From Dichotomicrobium thermohalophilum (GTDB lineage: Bacteria; Pseudomonadota; Alphaproteobacteria; Rhizobiales; Rhodomicrobiaceae), in assembly GCF_003550175.1 (NCBI RefSeq), contig NZ_QXDF01000001.1:1698501-1762500 (forward strand): 64,000 bases of DNA, read 5' to 3'. The notes beneath the pieces were generated by a model. The model saw only the letters and a program-made list of their open reading frames with translations. It was not told where the DNA came from and searched no databases. Position numbers and translations under genes: made by a program. Every line of letters begins with the position of its first letter. Position 1 is the first letter of the stretch. Shown piece by piece: positions 24,233 to 39,128 of this stretch.

Positions 24233-25423
24233 TTGACCATTGCCGCGTTAATTGTCGCAGCCGGTCGCGGAACCCGCGCCGCCACGCCGGGCGCACCACC
24301 GAAGCAGTACGCGCGCCTTGCCGGGCAGATGGTGCTCACACGCACGCTGGCGCTGTTCTGCGCACATCCCCTGGTGGATCGCGTGCTCGCCGTGATCGCA
24401 GAGGAGCATCGCGGCTGGTACGAGCAGGCCGCAAGCGGTCTGCCCGACCGCGGCAAGCTGCTGCCGCCGGTCGCGGGTGGCACAGAGCGGCAAAGCTCCG
24501 TGCTGAACGGTTTGAATGCGCTGGAGGACGCAGCGCCGGAAATCGTCCTGGTTCACGACGCTGCCCGGCCGCTGACTCCGGCAAATGTGATTTCACGCGT
24601 GATCGAGGGCGTTGAGACGCACGGGGCGAGCATCGCCGCGGTGCCGGTTGCCGACACCCTGAAGCGCGGCCAGAATGAACTGATAGAAGGCACAATTGAC
24701 CGCACCGGTCTCTGGCGCGCCCAGACCCCGCAGGGTTTTGCCTATAAGGCGATTCGCAACGCGCACGAGGCGGCTGCACAGAGGCAGGTGACCTTCACGG
24801 ATGACGCGAGCATCGCCGAATGGGCCGGGATGCGCGTCGCATTGGCGATGGGGTCCGAGCGCAACCTCAAGATTACCAGCCGGGAGGACATGGCTTTGGC
24901 GGAGAGCCTGATCGCACAAGGGGCCGAGACCCGCGTCGGCACCGGCTTCGACGTCCATGCCTTCGGTCCGGGTGACACTGTCTGGCTTTGCGGCGTGCCG
25001 ATCCCGCACGAGCGGGGCCTGGTTGGGCATTCGGACGCCGATGTGGGCCTGCACGCTCTGACGGACGCGATCCTCGGGGCGCTCGCCGCAGGCGACATTG
25101 GCGCACATTTCCCACCCTCCGATCCGCAGTGGCGCGCGGCTGCGTCGCACATCTTTCTCGAACGCGCGGCCGATGAGGTTGAAAGGCGCGGCGGACGTAT
25201 CGTCAACGCGGACGTCACGCTGATCTGCGAGGCGCCGAAGATCGGCCCGCACCGGCAGGCGATGCGCTCCGCCATCGCCGAGATCTTGCGTGTGCCCGTC
25301 AGGCGCATCAGCGTGAAGGCGACCACCAGCGAGAAGCTGGGCTTCACCGGCCGCAGGGAAGGCATTGCTGCGATGGCCACGGCAAGCGTGGCGGTCCCAT
25401 TCAGCGGAGACGAGACATGCTAG
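24233..25423 (+). CDS. ispDF: Bifunctional IspD/IspF, MEP-pathway isoprenoid synthesis
   Basis: Fused enzyme for two non-consecutive steps of the methylerythritol phosphate pathway: cytidylyltransferase (IspD) and 2-C-methyl-D-erythritol 2,4-cyclodiphosphate synthase (IspF). It has 396 residues. IspD occupies about 1-225 ([16 protein letters not shown]); IspF begins at [12 protein letters not shown] with metal ligands in DVH and [10 protein letters not shown], and ends with [13 protein letters not shown]. The start is TTG 24233, preceded by GAGGGTGAG. The fusion is typical of alphaproteobacteria. cinA overlaps its end by 7 bases. Confidence 0.96.
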
Positions 25424-25929
25424 ACGGCCAGCGGACCGAGCAGGCGCGCAAACTGATCGACCTTTGCAAGGAACGCGGGCTGATGATCGGGACAGCGGAG
25501 TCCTGCACCGGCGGCCTGCTTGCGGCGTGCATCACGGCGGTGCCCGGCTCGTCAAAAGTGTTCGAGCGCGGCTTCGTGACCTACGCCAACGACGCCAAGA
25601 TAAAGATGCTCGGCGTCGATGCCGACCTGCTGGCCGCGCATGGCGCGGTGTCCGAGCCGGTCGCGCGAGCGATGGCCGAAGGGGTGCTGGCACGCGCGCC
25701 CGTGGACCTCGCGGTAAGCATTACAGGCGTTGCCGGCCCGGGCGGCGGTTCGGCGGAGAAGCCGGTGGGGTTGGTGTTCATCGGCAGCGGGCGCAAGACC
25801 CTTGATGGACCAGAGGTGACCGTCGAACGCTGCGAATTCGGGGACGTGGGCCGAAACGTGGTGCGCGAGCGAACCGTCGCGGAAGCCCTCGATCTACTCA
25901 TGCGGCTCGCGCAACGATCCTCAGTGTGA
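25417..25929 (+). CDS. cinA: CinA-family nicotinamide-nucleotide amidohydrolase
   Basis: A stand-alone C-terminal CinA domain of 170 residues (PncC type), which deamidates nicotinamide mononucleotide to nicotinate mononucleotide in pyridine nucleotide salvage. The signature [12 protein letters not shown] is at about 21-32, and [13 protein letters not shown] lies further on. The N-terminal domain of full-length CinA is absent, as usual when it follows ispDF. It overlaps the end of ispDF by 7 bases and converges on ratA across a gap containing a two-hairpin repeat. Confidence 0.9.
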
Positions 25930-25953
25930 ACCACCAGCGCCGGAGCTGCCCTT

Positions 25954-26027
25954 CGTCGTTGCCGGGCGCACCCCGGCAACCCAGTGAGGGATGTCTCATG
26001 GATGCCCGTGTCAAGCACGGGCATGAC
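25954..26027. repeat. Two-hairpin palindromic repeat, copy A
   Basis: It consists of GTTGCCGGG-N5-CCCGGCAAC (25958-25980) and ATGCCCGTG-N5-CACGGGCAT (26002-26024), both perfect 9-bp stems with 5-base loops. The same pair occurs in opposite orientation at 38936-39020. It lies between the convergent ends of cinA and ratA, where it may also act as a bidirectional terminator. It resembles the REP-like intergenic palindromes common in alphaproteobacterial genomes. Confidence 0.8.
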
Positions 26028-26053
26028 GCCGCTCTCACTGATCGGAACGCAGC

Positions 26054-26533
26054 CTAGACGTTTTCGGTACGGACACGCCGGTCGGCCTTGCCGTAAATCT
26101 GGTCCGCGCGGGCCTCGAAGGCCGTCACGAATTTGCGGAAAGCCCGGTCGAACATCTGACCCATCAGCATCTGCAAGGCCCGCGAGCGGAATTCATAGGC
26201 GAGGTCGAAGCCAATCTCGCAGCTATGGTCGTCAAGGGGGGTGAAGTCCCAACGATTCTCCAGGAACTTGAACGGGCCGTCGACATACTCGACGAGGATG
26301 TGCCGCTGCTGCGGACGCAGAGTCACGCGTGTGACGAAGGATTCGCGCAGGAAACGGTAAGCGACGGTCATCTCGGCGACCAGCACGTCGCCCTCATCAT
26401 GACGCTCCCGCTCCTTCAGGATCAGCCGCTCGCACAGCGGCACGAATTCCGGATACCGCTCCACATCGGCAACGAGCGCGAACATGTTGTCCGCGGAATG
26501 CGCGACGCGGCGGGTCGTGCGGAAATGCATCAT
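26054..26533 (-). CDS. ratA: RatA/Coq10-type START-domain protein
   Basis: 159 residues of the polyketide-cyclase/START superfamily (RatA/PasT, Coq10). It has the N-terminal [25 protein letters not shown] and a conserved [10 protein letters not shown]. In E. coli RatA was described as an inhibitor of 70S formation; the yeast homologue Coq10 binds ubiquinone for respiration. With the lipA-pyruvate dehydrogenase neighbourhood, a ubiquinone or respiratory role seems more likely, but this is inference. Its start overlaps the lipA stop (ATGATG, 4 bases). Confidence 0.85.
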
Positions 26534-38090: not shown

Positions 38091-38474
38091 ATGAACACAG
38101 CCATGACACGCATCTACAAGGAGTTTACATTCGAGGCAGCGCACTACCTGCCGTCCGCACCGCCGGGCCACCGCAACGCGCGGGTGCACGGGCACTCGTT
38201 CCATGTCCGTGTGAGCATCGACGGCGAGCCGGACCCGGAGACGGGCTTGATCTACCATTTCGATGACCTCAGCGCGGCGATCGCTGATGTCCGCGAGATG
38301 CTGGATCACCAGATGCTTAACGACGTGCCGGGGCTGCAGGCGCCCACGCTGGAGATGATTTCGCGCTGGATCTGGGAGCAGCTTGCACCGCGCGTGCCCG
38401 GCCTGGCGGAGGTGGCGCTGTCGCGCCCGAGCTGCCAGGAGGGCTGCATCTACACGGGCGGGAGCAGTCAATGA
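38091..38474 (+). CDS. queD: QueD-like 6-carboxytetrahydropterin synthase
   Basis: Expected to convert dihydroneopterin triphosphate to 6-carboxy-tetrahydropterin. It has 127 residues. Zinc histidines are visible in FEAAHYLP (H18) and VHGHSF (H33, H35), and the ending [11 protein letters not shown] matches E. coli QueD. The residue aligned with catalytic Cys27 of E. coli QueD (in HKCGRLHGH) is asparagine 29 here (HRNARVHGH). ATG 38103 is an alternative start four codons later. The queF ATG overlaps its TGA. Confidence 0.9.
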
Positions 38475-38923
38475 GCGACGATCTGACCCAGCTCGGCAAG
38501 GCGGCGGCGATTCCGGCCTCGCCCGAGGAAGCGCGACTCGAACGCGTCGCGAACCCGCACCCGGATGTCGATTATGTCGCGCGCTTCACCGCGCCGGAGT
38601 TCACCTCGATCTGCCCGGTCACCGGCCAGCCGGATTTCGCGCATCTGGTCATCGACTATGTGCCGGATGCGTGGATCGTGGAGTCCAAGTCGCTGAAGCT
38701 CTATCTCAGCGCGTTCCGCAATCACGGCGCTTTCCATGAGGATTGTACGATCGCGATTGCCAAGCGGCTGGTGGACCTGCTCAGCCCCAAATGGCTTCGT
38801 ATCGGTGGCTACTGGTATCCGCGCGGCGGCATCCCCATCGACGTGTTCTGGCAGACCGGCGAACCGCCCGCCGGCGTATGGATACCCGATCAGGGCGTCG
38901 CGCCCTATCGCGGCCGCGGCTAA
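38471..38923 (+). CDS. queF: NADPH-dependent preQ0 reductase QueF
   Basis: Reduces the nitrile of preQ0 to the aminomethyl of preQ1, the last precursor before tRNA insertion. It has 150 residues of the short (YkvM-like, type I) form. The catalytic cysteine is C48 in [13 protein letters not shown] with D55 downstream, and ESKSLKLYL is the NADPH-binding QueF motif. It overlaps queD by 4 bases. It ends the cluster, followed by a two-hairpin repeat. A folE gene for the first pathway step is not in the window. Confidence 0.96.
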
Positions 38924-38935
38924 CAACGCACTCAT

Positions 38936-39020
38936 GTCATGCCCGTGCTTGACACGGGCATCCGTTCTGTTGGCAGCGGCATCCGCTGATTGGGTTGCCG
39001 GGTCAAGCCCGGCAACGACG
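38936..39020. repeat. Two-hairpin palindromic repeat, copy B
   Basis: It consists of ATGCCCGTG-N5-CACGGGCAT (38939-38961) and GTTGCCGGG-N5-CCCGGCAAC (38994-39016), the same two stems as at 25954-26027 but in the opposite orientation. The first hairpin, loop included, is identical over 23 bases to the reverse complement of the other copy; the second differs only in its loop. It lies between the convergent ends of queF and kdsA. Confidence 0.8.
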
Positions 39021-39128
39021 ACCTCTATACAGCACAGTCATTGAGAGCGAAGTGACGCAATCCAGATCACACGCCAACACTGGATCGCTCAGCCCCCCTG
39101 GACCTCGCGATCACGGTTGCAATGGCCG

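Follow-up and report, generated by a model that had tools for sequence, protein, structure and literature searches.

Escherichia coli BIME/REP sequences are made up of alternating inverted hairpins that lie downstream of genes, and the repeat described here is built in the same way from a different sequence. The GTAG REPs and REPINs that go with a RAYT are likewise palindromes that carry a tag, come in inverted pairs and are scattered between genes, according to the text available from PMC3116915 and PMC2817692. A further group, the CGTC-tagged repeats, apparently has no dedicated transposase, and in the 2013 report its manner of spread was left open, as far as the available portion of that report goes (PMC3733652).

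The window, a stretch of 64,000 nt of the Dichotomicrobium thermohalophilum genome (2,988,045 bases, 7 contigs), carries a pair of perfect hairpins, each with a 9-bp stem and a 5-nt loop, at 25954-26028, between the convergent genes cinA and ratA. Both hairpins are present where a preliminary description, made from the letters alone, had put them. That description gave the flanks as CGTC and GAC; the first is right and the second is really the tag GACG, so that the pair ends at 26028. Scores in the lists below refer to R1, a covariance model of the 30-nt unit built from 15 sequences, to which both units of this pair belong.

25417..25929, + strand: cinA-like gene (CinA domain), 3' end 24 nt from the dimer
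25930..25953, + strand: stretch of 24 nt from the cinA stop (TGA) to the tag; arm consensus unrecognisable (8/16, chance level)
25954..25983, + strand: CGTC-tagged REP unit of the 'CCGG' type, with tag CGTC, stem GTTGCCGGG/CCCGGCAAC, loop CGCAC and tail CCA; R1 40.8 bits, E 9.1e-11
25984..25998, no strand: dimer spacer of 15 nt, the shortest of 25 (the rest 16-30 nt)
25999..26028, - strand: CGTC-tagged REP unit of the 'GTG' type, with tag CGTC, stem ATGCCCGTG/CACGGGCAT, loop CTTGA and tail CCA; R1 49.8 bits, E 1e-13
26029..26053, - strand: ratA-side outer arm of 25 nt, GCTGCGTTCCGATCAG..., from the ratA TAG stop; weak, 11/16 to the consensus AGCGCTTTTCGATCAG
26054..26533, - strand: ratA-like gene (Polyketide_cyc family), 3' end 25 nt from the dimer

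The left hairpin occupies 25958-25980 (GTTGCCGGG-CGCAC-CCCGGCAAC) and the right one 26002-26024 (ATGCCCGTG-TCAAG-CACGGGCAT). As both units run, from the outside inwards, through CGTC, the 9-bp stem, the 5-nt loop and CCA, with the tags outside and the tails inside, the pair is a head-head dimer. Owing to the short spacer and the 24-nt stretch on the cinA side, only 124 nt separate the two stop codons. The gene names hold at family level: the cinA product matched the CinA domain PF02464 (1.6e-54) and the ratA product was of the Polyketide_cyc type (PF03364, 9.1e-32), scoring 88.4 bits with the RatA equivalog model, under the cut-off of 258.

The GC content of the window is 64.5%, which would favour hairpins arising by chance, but each hairpin pattern (up to 3 mismatches) occurs at exactly 2 places in the window, where 100 dinucleotide shuffles gave means of 0.02 and 0.08. 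Together with the genome-wide matches and the empty control search for exact cores given below, this rules out a chance origin, the probability of which is vanishingly small.

The same pair of units occurs again in inverted order at 38935-39020, with hairpins at 38939-38961 and 38994-39016, and this second dimer also lies in a convergent junction, that of queF and kdsA.

38471..38923, + strand: queF, 3' end 11 nt from the second dimer
38935..38964, + strand: GTG-type unit of the second dimer, tag TGTC, tail CCG; R1 45.9 bits
38991..39020, - strand: CCGG-type unit of the second dimer; R1 52.5 bits
39129..39980, - strand: kdsA (KDO-8-P synthase), 3' end 108 nt from the second dimer

The inverted match between the two dimers extends into the flanks, as reported earlier, with 28 nt at 100% and 36 nt at 83% identity. 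The spacers are unlike, 15 and 26 nt long and different in sequence. Beside the second dimer, GTCATTGAGAGCGAAGTGACGCAATCCAG at 39037-39065 is probably the remnant of a different CGTC-like family of palindromes, and CGTCATTGCGAGCATAGCGAAGCAATCCGG at C5:21813 in this genome is comparable to it. The window also holds two diverged direct repeats in predicted coding regions, 31421-31682/33321-33582 (79%) and 16938-17046/21086-21194 (72%), which are probably paralogous genes. At gathering scores Rfam matched nothing in the window, and a 601-bp region of it had no match in phage records.

Further copies are spread over the genome. The R1 search returned at least 63 matches at E<=0.1 and at least 58 at E<=1e-4, one of the latter being a second-strand reading (C1:1866832) without which 57 are left; R1 unit counts, here and in the relatives, are lower bounds, the best 150 or 120 candidates having been scored per genome. 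Around these matches 32 stretches were fetched. The working list contains 62 of the 63 hits, C1:1866832 being left out as the other strand of a listed hit. Later counts are based on 58 units, obtained by also removing four weak hits (C1:190269, C1:1897427, C4:14682 and C5:21813) that were left out of the orientation and distance counts. Exact cores were found 11 times for the GTG type and 4 times for the CCGG type, and not once with the reversed-pattern control. By a simple consensus match, 10 of the 11 GTG core copies have an inverted second unit, and the eleventh has a nested one.

From the 58 units 25 head-head pairs could be put together with both members found, and the partners of several unpaired units proved to be nested units missed by R1. 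The pair spacers measure 15-30 nt, 21 of the 25 falling at 23-27 nt. Most pairs combine a GTG-type with a CCGG-type unit, these labels being rough and a few units with variant stems mislabelled; other stems also occur, for example ATGCCCGGA and ATCACCGGG. The tag is CGTC in 54 units, TGTC in 3 and GGTC in 1, a count that is partly circular since R1 includes the tag, and the tail is CCA in 9 of the 15 model rows, the others having CTA, CCG (two), CGA, CAA and CTG.

Two places in the genome look different. C2:125532-126399 (L065) holds a cluster of simple and nested units that point in more than one direction, whereas dimers usually stand alone. At C1:190269-190287 (L077) a REP-like core, CCCGGGCTTGATCCGGG, lies within another long palindrome-like stretch, GCGCATTTCCGAAAAAGCCTGT...ATGGGAACCGGTTTTTCGGGC, which is perhaps another case of a hairpin within a palindrome.

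Over 46 distinct rows, 96.1% of the stem cells are paired. The covariation score was 0.450, against 0.155 in shuffles and 0.015-0.068 in slid versions of the alignment, and 71 stem cells were changed on both sides against 25.8 in shuffles; two of the five measures were not clearly above the shuffles, namely pairs with a double change (5 vs 4.5) and further pair types (13 vs 11.1). This shows that the hairpins are the unit of the family; selection on each copy does not follow from it, because pairing is favoured by an alignment built to fit the structure, and much of the signal comes from few stem types. Several copies have broken stems (C1:1271395 and C1:2122079, for example), and many copies may therefore be old.

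The position of the repeat with respect to genes was determined with a home-made codon-usage gene finder trained on the recognisable genes of the window. After removal of the 4 weak hits from 35 sites, 17 of the remaining 31 are convergent, 13 codirectional and 1 divergent. Among other junctions 15 of 217 are convergent (p 7e-10), a background that was obtained by subtracting the 31 sites from the totals, still includes 3 convergent junctions of weak hits and comes mostly from loci chosen around elements. The repeat thus prefers gene 3' ends, above all convergent junctions. The earlier proposal of an amplified REP/BIME-like element between convergent genes, for which a table of gene orientations had been suggested, agrees with these counts, that is, with at least 58 unit matches at about 30 sites and with the excess of convergent ones.

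In a set of 61 genomes, which includes this one and otherwise consists of genomes from other genera, 39 have at least one unit (E<=1e-4), this genome again giving at least 58 matches. The seven family-mates have 0, 0, 1, 2, 1, 1 and 2 units, two of them being drafts of 82-88% completeness, and other families of the order reach up to at least 120. The ratA gene was found in 58 of the 61 genomes and 30 loci were fetched, one of them the locus studied here. A cinA gene that faces ratA with no unit (E<=0.05) in between is seen in 11 of the 29 relatives, at distances of 26-254 nt between the alignment ends (132 nt here), and 6 of these 11 genomes have 22-78 units at other places. For the remaining 18, the genes lie at a greater distance, are separated by another gene, or cinA was not found in the stretch; in one of the relatives (G041) ratA is followed by a weak unit (E 7e-4), cinA coming roughly 1 kb beyond. 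The low counts in the family-mates and the 11 junctions without a unit argue for spread rather than inheritance, and the dimer at cinA/ratA appears, as far as seen, to be a feature of this lineage. As the relatives are about 50-62% identical in RatA, the empty junctions are compatible both with gain here and with loss there. Neither excision nor transposition came to light in the comparison.

The Y1 transposase domain PF01797 (Y1_Tnp), which is that of RAYTs and of IS200/IS605, had no match in this genome or in the seven family-mates; the control search matched in 5 of 14 named genomes. Of the 61 genomes, 14 had a match at E<=0.001, which in 13 of them passed the cut-off. Among the 19 genomes with at least 20 units, this one included, 13 had no match, so that the RAYT connection suggested earlier is not borne out. 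Mobilisation by a RAYT, as with the REPs and REPINs of gammaproteobacteria, would explain why the repeat shares their general build, tagged hairpins in inverted pairs, and it would fit the slightly more frequent presence of units in RAYT-positive genomes (12/14 vs 27/47 of the others, p 0.064, uncorrected for phylogeny). The association is gone when at least 20 units are required (p 0.33, equally uncorrected), and the tag is CGTC instead of GTAG. Of 24 RAYT loci, 3 have a unit within the fetched stretch and none has units on both sides, some stretches being cut by contig ends; with regard to Y1 transposases, then, the units do not flank the transposase gene. A RAYT was accordingly rejected as the carrier in this genome, and this explanation is very unlikely. 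The absence of a Y1 transposase agrees with what the available part of PMC3733652 says of CGTC repeats.

In many copies the sequence between tag and stop codon seems to form a degenerate inverted arm, AGCGCTTTTCGATCAG. A gene 3' end is found within 70 nt before the tag in 35 of the 58 units. For 25 of them the distance is 24-26 or 33-36 nt, with eight exactly 34 nt away on the CCGG-labelled side, a sharpness that is evident; the distance windows were chosen after seeing the data, and a binomial p should not be read literally. The arm consensus is matched at 11/16 or better in 21 of 54 units, against 0.4 expected from shuffles, the motif having been read from the same data and the 4 units of the C2:125532-125814 array having been dropped, and in 18 of the 21 the arm starts 24-36 nt from the tag. 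A 19-nt arm pattern (up to 3 mismatches) gave 18 genome matches against 1 in the control, 5 of the 18 being at REP sites by coordinate. Among 58 units of other genomes 2 reach 11/16, against 0.45 expected, and as far as seen the arms would belong to this lineage.

The stop codons and the distances between genes were considered together with the arms. TAA or TAG ends 28 of 39 genes beside a unit (gene end within 80 nt on the + strand or 110 nt on the - strand) and 92 of 215 elsewhere (p 9e-4). Where convergent genes have no unit between them, the gap is -4 to 12 nt in 8 of 15 cases; the 17 gaps with a unit measure 123-418 nt, 8 of them 145-159 nt. A longer element, of about 146 bp, seems to encompass many of the copies, and the simplest reading is that this element, made up of an arm of 25, a dimer of 86 and an arm of 34, entered junctions whose stop codons were nearly touching.

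IS630 relatives duplicate a TA target. The 146-bp composite could be a MITE that a DDE transposase moves, duplicating a TA target as it does so, the TA being that within the TAR stop codons at both ends, and the recurrence of the arms, their distances from the gene ends and the excess of TAR stops beside units all point in this direction. The genome does contain a single IS630-type DDE_3 match (C1:839961-840362, L167), but no arm (up to 3 mismatches) was found within its 3.4-kb locus, and IS630 was rejected as the carrier. The post hoc choice of motif and windows also weighs against a MITE, as does the restriction of the arms, so far, to this genome; and because convergent genes here often abut even without a unit, this by itself is enough to place stop codons at the ends of the element. 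Nor was an empty site seen in the set of genomes. Movement as such a MITE is unlikely. No transposase of the Y1 or IS630 type could be linked to the element.

The arms also bear on the question of termination. The stretch 25800-26200 has no U-tract or T-run terminator-like site on either strand, and the suggestion that the hairpins end transcription from both sides therefore has no support in the sequence. A bidirectional terminator of cinA and ratA kept by selection would account for the symmetric place of the dimer, 24 and 25 nt from the stop codons, for the convergent bias of the sites and for the strong predicted RNA fold (-61.2 kcal/mol, z -2.8; another copy z -3.5). Against this, 11 relatives have the same convergent junction without a unit, so that the dimer is not a needed terminator. 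Over 25 dimers the arms of one locus are barely more alike than those of different loci (7.24 vs 6.79, p 0.135; shuffled 6.0), which argues against upkeep of the arms as an RNA stem and lends no support to arm pairing kept by compensation. A selected terminator is unlikely. By analogy with known REPs, a role at mRNA 3' ends as a by-product is likely.

Some units have 25-27 nt extra between CTTG and A of the loop, and this insert is itself a hairpin, either CCTG-TCCCCGGA...TCCGGGGA or CCTG-TGCTCGGG-CCTGA-CCCGAGTA. The nested pattern has 12 exact matches in the genome and none in the control, which gives at least 12 such units, and by coordinate all 12 matches are within a REP unit or at the position of its partner. 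At least three types of stem carry such an insert, namely ATGCCCGTG, ATTGCCGGA and one that contains CACCGGG. The nested form may have arisen by insertion, or the simple form by loss. The exact pattern had no match in the contig database genome_contigs, which may leave out this genome and near ones. A looser pattern gave 28 stretches there, and on reading 8 of them (L141, L145, L146, L151, L152, L156, L162 and L165) have a hairpin insert at CTTG^A; L157 is weaker and most others are tandem half-units. Two Parvibaculum and one alphaproteobacterial MAG show CCTGTCCCGGCGAAAGCCGGGA or something close to it; the rest come from two Bradyrhizobium, a Defluviicoccus and two contigs of a single alphaproteobacterial MAG. 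Outside the genome studied here the inserts measure 22-33 nt. Among the open-licence PMC matches listed, no title names nested REP loops, and the plain 17-nt core was found in none of the open-licence PMC papers searched. The place of these hairpins raises the possibility that DNA is broken, or strands are transferred, at the loop itself.

A bolder reading joins the arms to the loop inserts. According to it, the CGTC REPs of this lineage would travel as a transposon of about 146 bp, arm-dimer-arm, targeting TA in the overlapping CTAG/TTAA stops of convergent genes; the mover would be of the DDE type and not a tyrosine transposase, and the exposed CTTG^A loops would be recurrent landing sites for further tagged hairpins. 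This is quite unlikely, yet if true it would tell which class of mobiliser the CGTC superfamily has been missing. The arms and the loop inserts are leads to the carrier of movement. With dozens of units, family-mates that have next to none, no detectable Y1 transposase and outer arms, this is a useful genome for tracing the spread of CGTC REPs.

Taken together, the dimer at cinA/ratA is very probably a head-head pair of unlike CGTC-tagged REP units, a heterodimer, at one of the genome's roughly 30 sites; the repeat is dispersed, is absent from this junction in the relatives examined and probably spread as a short element copied in trans. Of the interpretation first offered for it, the amplified element between convergent genes has stood, the RAYT link is not supported, and termination from both sides has no support in the sequence. 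The element is, or was, presumably short, mobile and free of genes, copied by an enzyme acting in trans that would be other than a RAYT encoded in this genome. It would land in the tight junction between convergent genes and be tolerated there, as neither gene is broken. Transcription from either side would then place stable hairpins at the mRNA 3' end, where they probably hinder 3'-5' exonucleases and some read-through, an effect that would be a by-product and not the reason for their presence.

Compared with the GTAG REPs and REPINs as presented in the accessible text of PMC3116915 and PMC2817692, the repeat has another tag and its genome has no RAYT. Much closer are the families CGTC-3 and CGTC-4, which, in the passages available from PMC3733652, have the same CGTC/TGTC tag, 9-bp stem, 5-nt loop and CCA tail, the same head-head dimers with tags outside, usually heterodimers, the same location at gene 3' ends and apparently no dedicated transposase. 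What sets the present repeat apart from these families, as described there, are the arms AGCGCTTTTCGATCAG outside the tags and the hairpins inserted in the loop. In the same passages stems almost always start with A-T pairs, and the first unit of the cinA/ratA dimer starts with G-C, as in 4 of the 46 distinct rows. For the rest, the 8-9-bp stem with a 4-5-nt loop, the CCA-like tail and the mostly head-head arrangement at convergent and codirectional sites were all found together with the tag, nested units having longer loops. A counterpart to the arms is the 41-bp palindrome around the CGTC-1 dimers of H. neapolitanus, and one to the loop inserts is given by the loops of other length or composition in Bradyrhizobium, K. 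olearia and M. prima, both mentioned in the available part of PMC3733652. The loop inserts also recall ISRm22 of S. meliloti, which according to the available text of PMC1525189 inserts at the axis of REP palindromy; the insert there is an IS, whereas here it is a hairpin of 25-27 nt (22-33 nt in other genomes). The repeat agrees with the definition published by Di Nocera et al. 2013 in its tag, stem, loop, tail and head-head dimers, to judge from the available part of PMC3733652. It is a member of the CGTC-tagged REP superfamily, already known from alphaproteobacteria, and not a new kind; its arms and loop inserts go beyond the preliminary description, both being partly precedented in print.
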